A stretch of 64,000 nucleotides of DNA from Saksenaea vasiformis B4078 (taxonomy: Eukaryota > Mucoromycota > Mucoromycetes > Mucorales > Saksenaeaceae), in contig JNDT01002278.1 of assembly GCA_000697055.1 (NCBI GenBank), forward strand, positions 62,001 through 126,000, written 5' to 3'. This document shows positions 24,590 through 53,604 of the stretch, piece by piece. A program made the translations under genes and the position numbers. The notes beneath the pieces were generated by a model. It made no database searches and had not been told where the DNA came from. It worked only from the letters and a program-made list of their open reading frames with translations. Position 1 is the first letter of the stretch, and every line of letters begins with the position of its first letter.

Positions 24590-25165
24590 TATCAGGTTGA
24601 TTAAATAAATAAGCATGGATGGTAAGACGCGGACCGAAAGACAAGGATACATTTCGAAAATGGTATACATGGAAAGCCGATAGAGATAAAGCGGGGTATG
24701 TGTCTGAAGCTACAAAAGCGTCTCGATTGCAAAAGCAAATATAATTTCTTCTATTGTTTACAACGAAAATAGGCCGTAGCACTCATTTCTCTTCTAAAAG
24801 GGTTCAACCATTTAACCCTCAAGCAGTTGCCATGTGCCAATAAAATGATAATGATTTGCTTGCTTCGCACATGGGTAATCTCGCGCGCAAAATGATTGAC
24901 ACGCGAAAGATCGATCAGCTCGTGCGCTGAAACTACGTAGACGCCCAAGGTGATTGTTCACTTTGCGGCACTAAAGCATTGAGTCTGCGGGAAGAATATA
25001 TTCGCAATCATTGGTTGTTGCTATATGGAACTAAAAGATTTTGCTAAAGTGAACCCAGATGATTGACGCCGAATGCCAGCGAATGTCTTAGTGTGCCTAG
25101 TAATTTGCAGAAGATGGTTCATGCGGGGTTAATTTTTTGAGTTTGCATACATTATACATCTAAAT
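24590..25165 (+). repeat. Dispersed repeat B, copy 1 (~0.55 kb)
   Basis: The reverse complement matches 48,270-48,800 by eye at about 80%. Anchors include caagcagttgccatg near 24820, cgcacatgggtaatctcgcg near 24868, and ggggttaattttttgagtttg near 25128. No coding frame is shared. The end at 25,160 lies next to the stop codon of the adjacent gene. Confidence 0.8.
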
Positions 25166-43035: not shown

Positions 43036-44559
43036 CGTTCTTGCTAACGCTTTTTTTTGCAGCGAGCTATTCAGAAAGAAGGTATGGAAAAATCCATGAA
43101 ACGCATTTACAGAAATAGCTGCCATCATATAACGATACTAAAGTGGTGTCTCGTGAACTTTTATTGGATACATCTATCTTGCGGCATAGGAAGGTCAGTA
43201 GATTGTGTGAACCATGGGGCAATCTTCTGCTACAGTTAAAAGGCTTGTGCTTCCTTTTAGCTGAACAGATCAGCGGCCAACCAAGTTGATCTGAACAGTG
43301 TTAAGAGGTTAAAAAAATCCAAAAGTCTTGGATGCCGTGGCTACAGGTTTATACGTATCAGACGACATAAAATACTACGTGAGAAAATTCATGGAGTACT
43401 TTCCTTAAATCCGACAAATTGAAGTTCAAAAATAAACTGAGCATCTAAACTCTATTCAGGAAATCTATTTACGCATAGATTCAGGCTGTAATATTTCCTC
43501 GTGCATTCCATTTCTTTGTGTTTTGTACACTAATTTACCACCATTCGCAATAAACGCTTGCTAGAGATGCTCCGGTTAGCGTCCGTTATCTGGTGAGGCT
43601 GTAACCGTCTTCAGGTTCTATGCATCTGCTCATATTGACTTCGCTTATAATTACCCACGTTCTCTTTATTTTTAGTCTCGATAGCCCAAAAAAGTATTTT
43701 GAGCAACGTAAAACGTTCTGCAAAAACAGTAGCTCATAGATCATCCAAATAAAAACAGAATCTTCCAGCTGTATCACTCTTGACCGTGAACCAGGTTCGC
43801 CACTATCGACTATTACAGACTTAATCTTCTAGGCAATAATTCCTTTAGACCTGAATAGAAGTGTTACCGATAACATGGTGGATACTGGTCCATTTATCGA
43901 AGATATCTTTCAAAAAGCTGACATACTAGCCCATAGCTGCACCACTACTCGCATATCCAAGATTCCTGTCCAGCCTTTCTCTTGTTAATAGTTTTCATAT
44001 TCTCAAGTTTACTTTAATTAAATCTGAGGCAGAGGTAGCGCCCAATTTACGTGGTGGTAGTCTTTGCCCTCGTAATTGGCGCTGCAACGATGGCAGGAGC
44101 ACTTTTCCTTAAACCAGGCCCTCTCCCAGAACATACCGACCATAAGCGGTTCCCGTAAATGGTGGGAATACAGAGGATTGAAAACAAGTGAGAAGGAGCC
44201 AAAGCAATGAAGTCATGCTCAATAGACATTTATTTTTGCTAGTCCAATATGTTAATTCAACTTGTGACTGGAATCATTGGAGCTTTCTGTAACATTCTGT
44301 AGATTCCGGCCAGGCAAACGCAGATTGTGCTTGGATTTCTCTCGCACAATCTCCGTTGCCTTCGCTCCGTCCTCGGACGTGGTTAGGCCCCTCAAGCCAC
44401 ACTGTTATTCTCAGATAATTAATAAAATTAAAATTTTCAGTCTACTCCTCCCTCTAACACCTTTCATCGTGCATCATCTTTCTTCGCGAGGACCTGGGAG
44501 GAGTTTCGTACTACATATAAAAAGAAAACAGAAGAAATAAAAATTGAAATAAAATTGAA
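43036..44559. other. No supported gene
   Basis: Short unrelated frames only. No splice-linked coding series was found. Confidence 0.5.
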
Positions 44560-44835
44560 ATAAAAGGGGCGGGCGACCACATCCTTCGGACTTCGTTCCG
44601 GCAACTTTCTGATTTCTGCGAGGACACCACGGTTGCTTGTTGTTCTTCCAGTAACGCGGCTAACACAGTCTGGGTTGTAACAAAGGGACGATCCATACTA
44701 GTTAGGGTTGTAGACTTCTGTTTGACCAGCCTCTGGACGCTGGGGTGGAGAACAGGACCGAAACAATAGGGGCATGTCTTTGATGTGCGAAATTCGTCCG
44801 TTATTGACACGTAGCTTAATCCCGACCTTCTCCTA
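44560..44835 (-). pseudogene. C-terminal stump of a Fanzor-like (TnpB-related) protein
   Basis: Minus-strand reading from about 44,835 gives VSITDEFRTSKTCPYCFG, the conserved Glu-containing segment plus the first CxxC of the zinc ribbon. After a one-base frame change near 44,716 and a stop, the next frame gives LCYNPDCVSRVTGRTTSNRG, the second Cys pair and the RuvC-III region. The catalytic Asp expected after NR (NRD) is Gly here. The copy at 49.3-53.1 kb has the same order (NEFRSSQTCMFC ... CINPDC ... NRDVQAA). Everything N-terminal is missing. It lies directly after the MULE transposase relic on the same strand. Confidence 0.8.
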
Positions 44836-44879
44836 AATACGTAAATGGTAAGAATTTCTACGCATGCAAAATCTAAATA

Positions 44880-46503
44880 TTACCCAGCCGCTTGAGACAT
44901 AAGTTCTTCACTGTGCTGCTTTCCAAAATCTTTTGGAAGCGCAGTTCTCCTTCGTTGTTTGGCAGGTCTACTAGGCGCCTTGACTTCGCTCGCTCCTGGC
45001 AGCGTCATTGGTGGATGGCTGACCTTGTTCTGCGCCTGCAGAATGAGTTTTTCAACTCCAGCCATTAGCTCTTTGGTCTCTTGCTGACCTTCACACTGCC
45101 GAAATGCATCTTGAAGCTTTAAGATGCAATTCATCCACGGCTCTGCGGGTTGCAACTGGAGCTTGCCAGTTGTCTACCGGTTCTGTTGATGGATTTAGAT
45201 GCCATCTCTCCGGTATGTCATCAAGCTCCAGCTGTCTATCCTCTGGTAGCTTGTGCCTACAGGTATCTCAAACAAAATCCAAGGCTGGCATTTGCATGCT
45301 CTCTCCGTTCCATCCTTATATGCAAGTTCATTTTCGATCGTAATTAGAGCTCGTTTGGATATCTTGCAGAACAATTTCTCTAGCTGCTTGTTGCGATACA
45401 ACAGGAGATCGATATGCGTCAACTCCCGGATCAACAAGTCTGAGTAGTCTCTCTTAAATTGCTGGAGGTAGCCATGGACTTTACTAAATGTAACATGCAG
45501 AAGCTGGATAGCATGGAGGTTGCTCTTCAACGCTCGATGGCCACTTTCAGCCCTTTGCGTCGTAGTGCAACCGAAATGCATTAGCTGACCAGTATGACAA
45601 CCAGCCCACTCCTCGGTGCAACTAAGCCATTCACTTGCAAAATAATGGTGAATGTCGCACTTAGGGTGCTTATGCTGAAGTTTTTTATCTTCGGCTAAAA
45701 GCCGAAAGCTCTCGAGACATCTATTGAAGTCCTCCGCGCTGGCGCTATCGATCATCTGCATCACCAGATCCGTCCATTTCTTTTTGTCCTTACTATCAAC
45801 AAACACACCCGAGAACGCCTTTCCAATGCTATTCATCATGTGCCATGTGCACAGGAGCTTCGATGGTTGGGGAATACGTCATCTAGTGCATTCATTAAGG
45901 CAGTGCATTTATCGGTAATAAACACTGTCTTTTCATTATCTTCAGGGATGAGCGACTTTAGGTACTTCAAAAACCACGTATATGTCGCCTGCTGCTTGTG
46001 GTCAAATCAACAAAAGGCGATAGGAAAAGATCTCGACCTCAAGCCCTCCAAGATTGCTGACAGCTCGAACTGCAATCAATGGCATTCCTTGCATTATTAA
46101 TGTTGTAAATGGAATCGATAACCATGACTTCTGAAAAGCGATGAGCTCTGCTGAACATCTCGTTGGAAGCAAAGTACAATTGGCGCAGATATCCATTCTC
46201 GCCCTGATCGAAGTAGACGAAGTAACCTTTTGCTTCCATATCGCTGATCAAGATCGGCGCGGCTTCGCGCAACTCTCCCATCGACGGTCATGCAAGCCGA
46301 TATCTCAGGTTGTTGATATCGTGGACGGCTAGCTTGTTGTTTTTATCTCTTTCGTCGGCCACTTGCATGCTGGATCTGTCTCGTTCCGACCTCTCTTTCC
46401 ATGATAAGTTGTCATCTTCTCGATATCTTCCCCATTGGTCATAGTTTTTCTTCCTTTGATAGATGAAGAAAGAGTTTCTCGAGAGAGCGAATGAGTATGG
46501 CAT
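44880..46503 (-). pseudogene. MULE-type (Mutator-like, FAR1-related) transposase, frameshifted
   Basis: Minus-strand pieces in order match a MULE transposase: VHDINNLRYRL (46,503 piece), LYFASNEMFSRAHRFSEVMV with DSIYN (about 46,160), MPLIAVRAVSNLGG in the next frame, FITDKCTALMNALDDVFP (about 45,870, containing the second catalytic Asp), LCTWHMMNSIGKAF (45,840) and the C-terminal helical part with an H-x(n) segment to 45,195. A further frame at 44,880-45,155 may be the tail. At least three frame changes (around 46,275, 46,105 and 45,850) and stops disable it. Class II mobile element in origin. Terminal inverted repeats were not located. Confidence 0.85.
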
Positions 46504-48000: not shown

Positions 48001-48269
48001 ATGAACGCACAAATAGACATAGATAGTCCGTACCATGAATTCTTAACCATCCTCGCAAAGACAAATTCTCTGTCGTCATTACCAATTGATCCTGATCTGC
48101 TCATATCTTTTACTGACACTGCGATCGACGTCGATGATATATATGTAAGTTAGGTGCATCCATAGAGTGTGCACTGCAAGATTCGTGCATTTAAAGGCAT
48201 GCATATGCATTCTTTTTTGAGTTATATTTACTGCCCAACGGGTTCCTTTCAAATTCACTGACACCGTGT

Positions 48270-48800
48270 ACACTACTCAATGTATGCAAACTCAAAAAAT
48301 TAACCCCGCATGAACCAGCTTCTGCAAACTTGACTAGGCGCACTAAATCACTCGCTGGCCTTCAGCATCAAGCATCTGGGTTCACTTTTAGCAAAAACTT
48401 TTAGCTCTATAGCCACAACCAATGATTGCGAATATATGTGCTTCCCGCAGACTCAATGCTTTAGTGCCGCAAAGTGAACCATCACATTGACGTCTATCTT
48501 CAGTGTGCGAGCTGATCGATCTTTTTCGTGTCAAACATTTTGGGCGCGAGAGATTACCCATGTGCGAAGCAAGCAAGCAAATCATTATCATTTTATTGGC
48601 GCATGGCAACTGCTTGAAGGCTGAACGGTCGCACGCTTTTTAAGCGAGAACGTGCTACGACTGTTTTCGTTGAAAACAATAGAACAAATTGGATTTGCTC
48701 TTGCAACCGAGACTATACACCGTGTCGGCTCTCTGTATTATACCACGTTTGAAGGTACAGTATTCTCGTAATGACGTCCCGGTCAGCTTGATTGATTGGC
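48270..48800 (-). repeat. Dispersed repeat B, copy 2 (inverted relative to 24.6 kb)
   Basis: Opposite orientation to 24,590-25,165. Anchors: caaactcaaaaaattaacccc near 48288, gagattacccatgtgcgaag near 48548 and gttttcgttgaaaacaatag near 48662. It lies 270 bp from repeat A copy 2, so both families sit together just upstream of the Fanzor-like gene. Confidence 0.8.
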
Positions 48801-49254
48801 AGTATATTATGCAGTAATTAGGCTACACCTTGCATTCGGCTAAAATCGCTCAGGTCTTGCTAATATTATACTTGATCTCGTCTTGATCACCAATTTGCTT
48901 ATCATTCTTTGTATATTTTGTTGAGATCCTTTCGTCCTTTTATTCACGCCGGCGCGAGATTCATATCTGAAAGCGTATTTCCCGTTCCATCTCCTTCTCT
49001 GACAACTTCTTATTGATATTTTTCTCTTTGCAAGTATTTCCATCCCAAATACCACGGTAGCCTGCGCAAAAAGTCCAACAAAGCCTTCGAATGCGTCGTA
49101 CCTTATTATGAAGAATGAATGAATCAATGTACAGATTAGCTTCTGGCCGATGCACAAAAAAAAAAGAGAAGTCCAAAACATTGCGTCATTTGGCCATTAT
49201 CCTTAAGCTAGAAATTTAGACAACAATAGTACCTCATCTCTCTTTCTTTATTCC
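48801..49254. other. Upstream flank of the Fanzor-like gene
   Basis: No coding series. This is where the promoter of the Fanzor-like gene and the left end of any mobile unit should lie. No terminal inverted repeat was recognised. Confidence 0.4.
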
Positions 49255-52200
49255 ATGGAAAAAATTGCTTTACCCACAGTGCGCAGCAGCGCACGAAGAA
49301 AAAGAAAAAGGCACAGCAATCCAGAAATATCTCCAGAACAAGCAAAGACCGTATTGCTTGACATATTTGCGCGCAGACTGGATCGTAGTATTGAGAAAGA
49401 GCTTTGGAAGAACGAGGGCAACCGTTCTTTGGTGAAGAAGCCAGGGAAAGTATCCGATAAGCTAAAGGAGAAAAAGCTGAAGACGCAAGAGAAAAACATA
49501 AACCGACTGCGATTAAATTTAGAAAAGGCGGACGTGGTTCCGAGAGGATGCCTGGAAGAGGCAGACAAGGAAGCAAACTTACCGAAAGGAACGATCAAAA
49601 GAAAATTAAGCATACAGAAGCTTGCTGACCTGTGGAGGGAGTTTGTTGTGATCAACTTCGACAGAATTCTGACAACAGTAAAGGCCAGAGGACAGCCTGA
49701 CCGCCCGAAAAAGAAGGATGACCCAGAGACTACGTTAAGGACATGCACAACTCCATTGAAATCCATTCTTCGACCAGATCTTGGCGAATCGTTGAGACAA
49801 CATTTCATAGATACCTTGGTTTCTACCATGGAACAGTCGACCAACTATGTCTCTAATCTGGCGGCCGTAGTACAAAGTACAATGTTAAAATATGTCTCAT
49901 CAATTTGCACCCTTGATCCAAACACGAGTTCAGTAAAAATTGAATCAGGACAACCAATAACCGGCTTTGATGTCGGAACGGTGTTTTCAGAGGAAAAAAT
50001 CCGCTGTAAGGACCTGCTGAAGGATGGCCACATTGCTTCTATAGCCGCACTCCCAGAGGACGTAAAAGAATTCGTTGACCAAAATCCTAGCACACGGAAC
50101 GATGACTTCCTTTGTTTGTTTGATCAAACGTGTATTCAATTCATTCATGGCCTATACTTCTCCAAGCATGGAAGTAGATCCAAGGACAAACACGAATTAT
50201 GGGCGCAGTTGCAGCACCCTATCGTTGATAATCAGCCAAAAAATTCCTGATGGCCTATCACGGACAATGCATTTTCAATTAAATCAATACGCGACGAATC
50301 TCTCGAACATGTGGGATGGAGCTCTTTACAAAAAAAGTATGAATAATCTATTACGTGTTTTTCTCCGGATGAATCTTGCACCAAAACGTGAAGAAAAAAC
50401 TCGGCAAATCATTGAGAAAGCAAAAGAAGAAAGGAAGAAGAAGATTGACGAAAAAAGGTCTGTGCGGCATCCACGTCGAAGAAAAGCTCTCAAGCGAAAG
50501 ATCAGAAAAGAAAAGAAGGAGCTTAACAATCTAAAGAAGCGGATGGAAAAAGGAGGGGATGAAGAGACACTGATCAGACTTGCCACACGAGCTGCAACAT
50601 GTGTCGAAGCAATAAAAAAATTCGAAGTTTCGTTGCAAACAAAGGTGAAAGCGAAACCAAATTCAAGGCAAAGAAAGAAGACTAAACCGGAAGATAACGT
50701 GACGATTGCAACTGCGGAAGTAAGTTTAGAATGCCAGTGAAATCTCTATTTACACGATGACAGGAAAGGGAAGCAGAGGTATTGATATCAATTGGAGTAA
50801 CAGAAACCACGGTGTTTGAAAGTATAGAAGAAACATTGGAACATGCGGAGGAGGAAGATGACGAAACTAAACAAGACGATTGGGAGAAAAGAGAGCCCAG
50901 TCGACGAAGATTAGGAGTATTGCAAGCAATTACCAGAAAGCTTCTGGAGTCAACGGATATCACCGGGATAGTTACCGCTGAAGATGTGCTGGCTGTCTCA
51001 CACGACGATGACTCGTTTCCTGCTGAAGAAATGGACGTGGTGATCAATATTGCGAATTGTTTAAGACCCTACGTTCCTCGAGGGAAGGTCGGATCGGCGA
51101 TTAGTCTACGTCTAAACTTCGTAGCCTTGTCAAATATGCTTCTCCACGCTGTAGATTACGATAGATCTCTCACAAAGATCTGCCCATTGGTTAGTCCAGC
51201 GTCCATTCATGCATTGCCCTTAGATGCAACCACCATCTATGAGCTGTTTGGGTCCGATTCTGCTAGAATGGATTTGTACAAGTTAGACGGGTCAGTCTTT
51301 TCGAGTCTAGATGACGCAATTTCGGACAAGCGAACTATCTTGGGGTCATTCTTTGATCTGCAGGCTATCGAACAGCTATGCAAACGCCGGGGATTGACGC
51401 CGCGATGGCGTATAACTGTAACCCCGCAACTTACCGCGATCATTGATGGTGATATTTGTGGGAATCGAAGGGCTATGAGTTCCAGATATGACGATAGGCG
51501 AAAAAAGAACCGTGGTAAAATGGTATCGGACATCTCACAAGATACCAGTCATCCACAAAGTACGCACGAGATAGCAAAAGCTATCGAAGATACTACGACT
51601 AATATAAAGGCCTTGAGTTGACAGAGCGCCAGGGAGTGAAGTCGGTCAAGGAAGTTACGGGATTGATCGAGCGTTTATGTGACTCTCATCGAGAACAACA
51701 AACGATCGAAAAACGCCGCAGAAGAGATAAACGGAGGATTTCAAAGCGATCGACTGTGTTTAACGAAGATGCGGTGCTCGAGCAGCATATGACAAGTCGT
51801 GAATAGTTGAAAGCCGCACGACTTAACTACTGCAAAATCCAAACAGCCTTGAATGAGGTACGAAACGAATTGGCAGATGCACGAAGGAAGAGATACAGGT
51901 TGCAGCAGGTAAACAATGTGCTTAAAATGTAGTCTGCGGAAGAATCTGATGACGATACATTATAATACGCAGGTTCTCAAAGAACACAAAAAGAAGAAGG
52001 GAAAGAGTAGTACTGAAGGTGAAGAAGAGGAAAATCCGAAACGGGAAGATGGAAAGGAGGAGGTCAGAATGTGCCGGCCTGAAAGTTGGAGACGCCTTGG
52101 ATGTGAAGAAACCACGGATCGATTGGACCTCAGTGGCCTTCTCGAAGAGGCAAGACTGGATGCTAACAAGATAGTGACATTCAGTGGGACGGACTACGGA

Positions 52201-53145
52201 TTATGCGTGATGTCAACGACCGTACCCATCTCCCCTGAGCGCGCAGACTTCCATCTACAGCTGTTCAACGATCCTAACAATGTCGATCAAGCGCGTGTTA
52301 ACCCAGCAGTGCTAAAACTGCCAAAACCGATACGTATCACAGCAGCGTCCTTGGATGAGCGGCGTAAGAGGGTAAGTAAATTTGTTAGTCATCCACAACT
52401 ACTTAGACAAAACCCATGGTTCTAGTCAAATGTAGAAGTCCGTGCGGCTGAAAAAATGCTAAAAGAAGCGGCTATGATAAAAGCTACAACGATAGAAGAA
52501 GTAATACGGTGTCAAGAGGTAGGCGTTTATATCATCTGAATGGGTGCAAATGATTCATGCTCGTAAGTCGGACGCGAATGCCGTCTGGTGCTTAGACGCT
52601 TCTATCACAGCAAACGCTGGCACAAAGAAAAAATCACTCAAGATCTATACAAAGTGCATGTATACGACAGAGTAGCTGCAGACGAGAGGCGGAAGATTAC
52701 GGAGGAAGTGGGATTACGTGGGACCGGCAAAGACGTGGTCCCCGTCCTTGCGATCGGGACCCAAGGGTCGTGTTACGGCTCGACAATCAAGGGCCATGCG
52801 AGGCGAGGGGGAAATTGGCTAAGAAGGAGGCATAGAAGATATGCTCCGGTCTCCATGACCAATGAGTTTCGTTCTTCACAGACATGCATGTTTTGCTTTA
52901 AACGAATTGTTCATCCAAAGTGCCGTCGGTTCATCAACGGTCAATGGCGAAGGACAACGATTAACGGAAGCTCCCAATGTATAAATCCTGACTGCATCTC
53001 ATACAAAACCGGGCGATCCACGCAGAACAGAGATGTTCAAGCCGCGATGGCAATCGGGCTGGCTGCAATCAGCAATTTCGTCTCCCCTGAAAGACAAACA
53101 ATGAAGCCGCTCAACCCCAGCCCCAGCGCTGGAAACCTTTTTTAG
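49255..53145 (+). pseudogene. Fanzor-like RNA-guided nuclease gene (eukaryotic TnpB relative), near-complete but disrupted
   Basis: Coding segments 49255-50719, 50764-51908, 51973-52371, 52426-~52518 and ~52568-53145 are joined by GT-AG introns (50720-50763, 51909-51972, 52372-52425 and one near 52,519). Together they would code about 1,200 residues, long even for Fanzor1. The N-terminal two thirds are basic and helical. The C-terminus has the split RuvC fold: TFSGTDYGLCVMS (Asp codon 52192-52194), a LRRFYHSKRW helix, TNEFRSSQTC (Glu codon 52864-52866, at the Fanzor alternative RuvC-II position), a zinc ribbon (CMFC ... CINPDC) and TQNRDVQAAMAIG (Asp 53032-53034). Lesions: one extra A in the A6 run 50238-50243 (TGA follows), a frame change at about 51,600-51,617, and TAG at 51804-51806. 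The join at 52,519-52,596 is ambiguous. Recent decay, assembly error or recoding are all possible. Confidence 0.82.
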
Positions 53146-53604
53146 CCGATGCCACCGTTCAGGTACTACAACTCCAGAATTAGCAGCGTTATTGATGTTT
53201 GTTCAATCGTAGGTGCGTACAATCGTTGACAGAAGTCGCACAAGCGGTAAGTAACTATTGTCTAACTATCTGCGATGTCTTATAATATTGGTAGACTGAG
53301 TTGACTGGCAACCATCGCATGATGGAATCATATAACAGGTTGGCTTTGAAACATCTGAAACCCGTATATTGATGTGGTTTATAGACATGTTATACACTAC
53401 TCAAATTCGATGGACTACCTCAGATTTATTTTTTCACAGCTCACATTCAGAAAGTCGGGCGATATCCTTTATCAAAGCGCGGACCAGTCGTCCTTCCAGC
53501 ACTATAATATGTGAATAAAAGCGAGAGAGAGAAAAACTAATGTCATCGTCTTGCAAACTTGTGTTTAACATGATTTAAGAAATCTCAACTCGAACAACCC
53601 CAGA
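53146..53604. other. 3' flank of the Fanzor-like gene
   Basis: No gene. In Fanzor systems the guide (omega-type) RNA is usually made from the end of the gene and its 3' flank, so this stretch is the natural candidate. I could not define a conserved hairpin or boundary. Confidence 0.35.

Follow-up and report, generated by a model that had tools for sequence, protein, structure and literature searches.

A decayed giant Fanzor1 element of Saksenaea vasiformis with a putative omegaRNA scaffold assembled by splicing

The 64,000-nucleotide stretch analyzed here (the window; contig JNDT01002278.1, positions 62,001 to 126,000, or G000:C561:62001-126000 in our searches) comes from Saksenaea vasiformis B4078, whose genome was searched as 38.7 Mb in 666 contigs. 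With modest confidence, we recognize in this window a decayed Mucorales mobile element whose only recognized gene is a giant Fanzor1 and whose 3' end is a putative omegaRNA scaffold assembled by splicing. For giant Mucorales Fanzors we further propose, with arguments that we judge evenly balanced, that the scaffold is a predicted assembled RNA: two introns 3' of the stop codon would be removed by the spliceosome and mini-exons joined, and since the predicted helices span the splice junctions, an active guide would exist only after the spliceosome had acted. PMC10432273, PMC10711439, PMC11423790, PMC4227781 and, for the Fanzor1 motif, PMC3627910 are cited below from excerpts of their text.

Identity of the giant Fanzor1 gene

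An earlier note on this DNA had proposed a fungal Fanzor1-type gene with several introns, a displaced catalytic glutamate and an unusually long N-terminal region, and our analysis agrees with it on these points. The motif bases lie exactly where it placed them and in the same order, with the RuvC aspartate codon GAC (52192-52194, plus strand) in exon 3 followed by the glutamate codon GAG (52864-52866), the CMFC...CINPDC ribbon and the last aspartate codon GAT (53032-53034), and GT-AG introns separate the exons at 50720-50763, 51909-51972 and 52372-52425. Counted by hand, the spliced window reading is D-X192-SS, C4, X11-RD, which fits the Fanzor1 motif of Bao and Jurka, D-X(125,275)-[TS][TS]-XX-C4-X(5,50)-RD (PMC3627910), and the predicted fold of a relative is the RuvC/TNB fold of Fanzor1. 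A first structure model, P0002 (predicted template modeling score 0.25), with a Foldseek search had given nothing usable. The last exon of the window has 145 matches in the same genome including itself, the best paralogue being 80% identical, and the named relatives among 23 matches are Apophysomyces, Hesseltinella and Mortierella. The three acidic residues and four cysteines are invariant in an alignment of three full-length relatives (A1), as are the glutamate, the cysteines and the last aspartate in a five-row alignment (A2) whose window row leaves the first aspartate uncovered; judged from these sequences, the occurrence of the motif is not due to chance. Catalytic residues have been lost in some damaged relatives, with the last aspartate changed to asparagine in C441 and catalytic residues missing from P0004 and P0005.

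Some profile searches weigh against this identification. The window protein scored 12.5 bits against PF07282, below the cut-off of 26.3, and had no match in the PDB; SpuFz1 of Spizellomyces punctatus appeared at E 1.4 with profile A2, under three unrelated chains, and was not among the matches of profile A1. For five pieces of the window, Pfam returned nothing beyond sub-threshold names, and NCBIfam gave no names for four pieces. PF07282 matched three of 24 aligned proteins at E <= 10 (best 1.1e-4) and did not match P0001, the full-length relative from A. ossiformis. Like SpuFz1 and PpFz1 of Parasitella parasitica, the family combines a RuvC and zinc-ribbon fold with a glutamate just before the ribbon and a terminal aspartate, but the TNB of P0001 and of the window is too diverged for Pfam. 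In PpFz1-type proteins, the FRI, an insertion of about 100 residues in RuvC, binds cyclophilin.

Full-length relatives measure 1285 (P0001), 1255 (C160) and 1260 (C102) residues, about twice the length of most Fanzor1 proteins, for which 600-700 residues (PMC11423790) and up to about 800 (PMC10711439) are usual rather than defining. The gene is taken to be a giant Fanzor1 of about 1,260 residues in intact relatives. The long N-terminal region is common to the family (P0001, C160, C102); no known domain was found in its approximately 870 residues, and residues 150-900 of P0001 matched only themselves among 8000 scored candidates.

A 3' block predicted to fold after splicing

Downstream of the stop codon, short putative exons a to c and putative introns A to C (Table 1) recur in the 15 copies of the C139 subfamily, whose similarity ends at ...GGTTCAGATAC with unrelated flanks beyond; this end is kept with at most one change in 14 of the 15 copies and is degenerate in L026. 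The exons are almost gapless in this subfamily, with mean pairwise differences of 0.075 (a), 0.091 (b) and 0.117 (c), the coding tail standing at 0.087, and the putative introns are gapped and more divergent (0.159, 0.137 and 0.157). Counting partial ones, the genome holds 29 matches to the block. In the window subfamily, the layout was found in six copies, with losses of the exon-c end in C441, the intron B donor in C631, and the intron C donor and acceptor in C148. An Rfam search of 48700-53500 found no family at E <= 1.

The spliced sequences of L021, L012 and the window gave like folds with three stems, in which stem 1 spans the a/b junction, stem 2 lies within b, and stem 3 spans the b/c junction and adjoins the element end. 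This fold recurs in two subfamilies whose last coding exons are about 55% identical. Spliced z-scores were -4.0 for L021, -2.8 for L012, -2.4 for the window and -2.7 for C382, and exon-wise shuffles reached the observed architecture 0, 1, 6 and 2 times in 1000, respectively, giving strong shuffle support in four of five copies. Compared with alternative GT/AG choices, the proposed one ranked first in L021 (62 choices) and the window (8 choices) and fifth in C602 (10 choices). In C382 (12 choices) its rank was second when judged by energy and first per nucleotide, and in L012 (88 choices) it was 14th and fifth, respectively. In an alignment of 14 of the 15 C139-subfamily copies (all but L023), 96.6% of cells are paired; the figure is 91.8% in 13 sequences including divergent copies and falls to 24-44% when these are slid. 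Pair 85-96 spans the b/c junction and is A-U in five, G-C in five and unpaired in three of these 13.

A number of observations speak against a spliced scaffold. Spliced z-scores were weak in L018 (-1.07) and L026 (-0.24), and C602, for which 171 of 1000 shuffles reach the architecture, does not fold in this way. Within-family covariation was not clearly above that of shuffles in five measures (37, 42, 49, 259 and 424 of 500), with one pair showing a double change. Broken pairs among the 13 sequences number three in C353, four in C441b, six in C232 and eight each in C386 and C456, so that the last three lose 6-8 of 33-34 pairs, and among six further copies folded singly all three stems formed only in C353. 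Splice sites of intron B are also lost in divergent copies, the donor GT in C441b and the acceptor AG in C386. By eye, exons b and c were not recognized in the C102 group, which keeps the GTGCG exon a, nor in C634, where a GTGCG stretch is kept but intron A is missing; in the C360 group, no part of the layout was recognized. Finally, the A. ossiformis annotation of P0001 runs through exons a-b and reads them as a protein tail.

This annotation, the weak covariation and the divergent copies that fold otherwise would fit an ordinary decayed giant Fanzor1 in which exons a-c would be the final part of the coding sequence, their folding incidental, and the real omegaRNA would be found elsewhere or overlap the 3' end of the coding region; the spliced exons also stay open in frame in the C139 subfamily (by eye). 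We consider this explanation rather unlikely. Between L012 and L021, differences at codon positions 1/2/3 are 7/6/6 in exons a+b (19 in total) versus 36/22/108 in the last coding exon (P 0.006), a pattern that is not that of coding sequence, and 21 of 111 positions differ in exons a-c versus 166 of 570 in the coding exon (P 0.027). The codon-position evidence is moderate and the counts are small, but together these results suggest that exons a-c are constrained as RNA and not as protein. In the same comparison, paired columns showed no clear shortage of differences relative to unpaired ones (P 0.21), and two base pairs are broken versus 4.5 expected (P 0.08). The splice phase of C441 differs and its frame stops in exon b (by eye), which, like the recurrence of the fold in two subfamilies, argues against a coding role.

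A structured 3' untranslated region, or a cis-acting right end for transposition, in place of a guide scaffold appears less probable still. The block does end at the right end of the element and is kept in C148, which lacks the nuclease domain. However, a DNA-level signal would be independent of intron removal, and folding only when spliced (z of -2.4 to -4.0 in four of six copies, versus -0.92 to +0.46 for the unspliced sequences of four C139-subfamily copies) therefore counts against a right-end signal. The block also adjoins the flank, where Fanzor omegaRNAs lie (PMC10432273).

Proposed mechanism and known systems

For the spliced scaffold, we propose that in intact copies the protein would act as a DNA nuclease directed by RNA, cutting with its RuvC/zinc-ribbon C-terminus. 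One transcript would give both the mRNA and, once introns B and C were removed, the scaffold; it would be spliced first, and only then could stems 1 and 3 form. The last stem would include the ATAC of the target duplication, which fits the recoding of target-site constraints into the scaffold described in PMC10711439, and the guide would start after exon c, from flanking DNA. In other Fanzors, the RNA that guides the nuclease derives from the right end together with the adjacent flank (PMC10432273). The protein may then cut matching empty sites, thereby keeping the element.

As in SpuFz1 and PpFz1, the RNA, here putative and made of structured spliced exons, would be encoded at the right end of the element, but unlike theirs, the candidate RNA here needs splicing. 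IStrons, which join TnpB to a group I intron (PMC4227781), likewise combine introns with insertion sequence elements; their introns are self-splicing, whereas those proposed here are of the spliceosomal GT-AG type inside a putative RNA scaffold. No spliced omegaRNA was found in the titles and abstract starts of the Fanzor and TnpB literature searched, a scope outside which preprints and most subscription papers lie. In the Fanzor papers probed for these words, 'splic' occurs twice and 'intron' never in PMC11423790 (one of the two passages concerning cyclophilins), 'splic' occurs once, in a reference, in PMC10432273, and neither occurs in PMC10711439.

Decay and former constraint of the window copy

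The possibly active catalytic center suggested by the earlier note is not supported for the window copy because the frame switches near 50240 (relative to P0001) and changes again near 51617 (relative to C441, by eye), TAG at 51804 falls within a stretch that stays open in relatives, and 12 codons kept by relatives just after RuvC-I are gone. By these lesions, the copy is dead and decayed. It is very improbable that it is functional and that the breaks are sequencing errors or alternative introns: the GT-AG introns 1-3 and the catalytic residues are kept, and the last exon shows a low ratio of nonsynonymous to synonymous divergence (dN/dS), but four lesions stand against this, as do the different lesions of C441 and C631, the closest full copies, neither of which is intact. 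In addition, the fourth intron has its GT at 52519, but the in-frame start of exon 5 is not directly preceded by AG (window copy alone read).

Compared with C441, the window has a dN/dS of 0.13 for the last exon, where dS is 0.77, and two other exons give 0.29 (dS 0.30) and 0.43 (dS 0.21); the values against C631 are 0.14, 0.36 and 0.39. Because these ratios are low, most of all in the last exon, the family was formerly under protein constraint. In the C139 subfamily, where dS is saturated and position counts were used in place of the median dN/dS, differences at codon positions 1/2/3 number 444/255/1430 (8 of 15 copies, 28 pairs). Window positions 52661-52960, in the exon with the high dS, show 77-78% identity to C441 and C631 versus 84-93% in all other 300-base bins, which suggests gene conversion with another lineage.

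A second Fanzor-like zinc-ribbon fragment lies at 44703-44834 on the minus strand of the window, matching query residues 87-132 from the window gene at 41% identity (E 5.8e-5), and one frame translated across 44500-45100 around it has several stops. Other Fanzor-like families of the same genome (L001-L008) carry NEHNTS, DEYCTS or NEAYTS motifs and score above the PF07282 cut-off.

Ends of the mobile element

If the candidate target-site duplications (TSDs; Table 1) bound it, the element is about 5.1 kb long; when the letters of the query were shuffled, 14 of 2000 trials gave a match of 11/12 within 3.3 kb. Among nine copies, a 12-base TSD was clear only in the window (11/12) and C458 (12/12), six others giving 9-10/12 at unrelated places, and five further copies gave 8-9/12. 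A 12/12 match in C148 was its own right end and was discounted. A 6-bp NTAC-type TSD agreed in five copies, three exactly and two with one mismatch (by eye). No terminal inverted repeats were seen by inspection, and no second gene was noticed in the open reading frame (ORF) lists of the window, C441, C631, C561b and C139, no dedicated search, for Crypton and Harbinger included, having been made.

The left ends of C441, C631, C430 and C148 extend up to about 840 bases further 5' (two with gaps), and that of the window stops short. Positions 48279-48713 have one other copy (85%), standing solo at 24720-25153 on the minus strand of the window, and the C139 subfamily has more than one kind of 5' region. 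MCi-2 and MCi-5, Fanzor1 elements of Mucor circinelloides, have TSDs of 11-12 bp (MCi-2, ATAATTN..) and 6 bp (MCi-5) (PMC3627910), sizes like those of the candidates here. Like the element described here, they belong to Mucorales, have no recognized terminal inverted repeats and join variable 5' regions to a constant 3' part with the Fanzor gene, whereas the candidate TSD here starts NTAC; in layout only, sequences not being compared, the variable 5' region of the window element seems to resemble that of MCi-2.

One internally deleted copy (L047, L049, L056; G000:C148:2259-3715) keeps the 5' part and exons a-c, with the nuclease domain gone. It can be likened to the ghost Spu-1 loci (PMC10432273), from which it differs as a deletion derivative of which only one copy was noticed. 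Near the end of the conserved region, the C102 family (L058/L032) has a hairpin-like TTTTTGCGTCA...TGACGCAAAAA unlike the 3' ends of other subfamilies (by eye).

Table 1. Features of the candidate element in the window
Feature	Position	Strand	Evidence
Candidate left TSD GTACACTACTCA	48268..48279	.	11/12 match to 53392-53403
5' module unlike the other four left ends (C441, C631, C430, C148)	48280..48760	+	no blastn match to those four
Element body common to copies	48761..53395	+	blastn 87% to C441 (48761-53371), 86% to C631 (48763-53395), flanks included
Degenerate exon 1, N-terminal region without known domain	49255..50719	+	tblastn of P0001: frame change between residues 23-338 and 338-484
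Degenerate exon 2, frame break near 51617, in-frame TAG 51804-51806	50764..51908	+	window and C441 ORF lists compared by eye
Exon 3, RuvC-I Asp 52192, 12 codons gone near 3' end	51973..52371	+	comparison with relatives by eye
Exon 4, 93 nt	52426..52518	+	GT-AG intron upstream
Exon 5, Glu 52864, C4 zinc ribbon, Asp 53032, stop 53143-53145	52567..53145	+	sequence, paralogue matches, A2 alignment
Putative intron A, after stop codon	53163..53212	+	GT..AG here; C139 subfamily GT 13/15, AG 14/15
Putative omegaRNA exon a	53213..53246	+	GTGCG at its start in most C139-, window- and C102-type copies
Putative intron B	53247..53294	+	GT..AG here; 15/15 in C139 subfamily
Putative omegaRNA exon b, holding all of stem 2 with the 3' strand of stem 1 and the 5' strand of stem 3	53295..53338	+	fold, alignment
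Putative intron C	53339..53384	+	GT..AG here; 15/15 in C139 subfamily
Putative omegaRNA exon c, closing stem 3; last bases ATAC overlap TSD	53385..53395	+	fold, alignment
Candidate right TSD ATACACTACTCA	53392..53403	.	11/12 match to left TSD

Implications

These elements add a double-length class of Fanzor1 with many copies in one genome, and because P0001 has no PF07282 match, Pfam-based surveys may miss this class. If the proposed splicing is true, a eukaryotic RNA-guided nuclease would have a guide that depends on the host spliceosome, its targeting would be restricted to spliced transcripts, and the production of mRNA and guide would be coupled, both coming from a single transcript.
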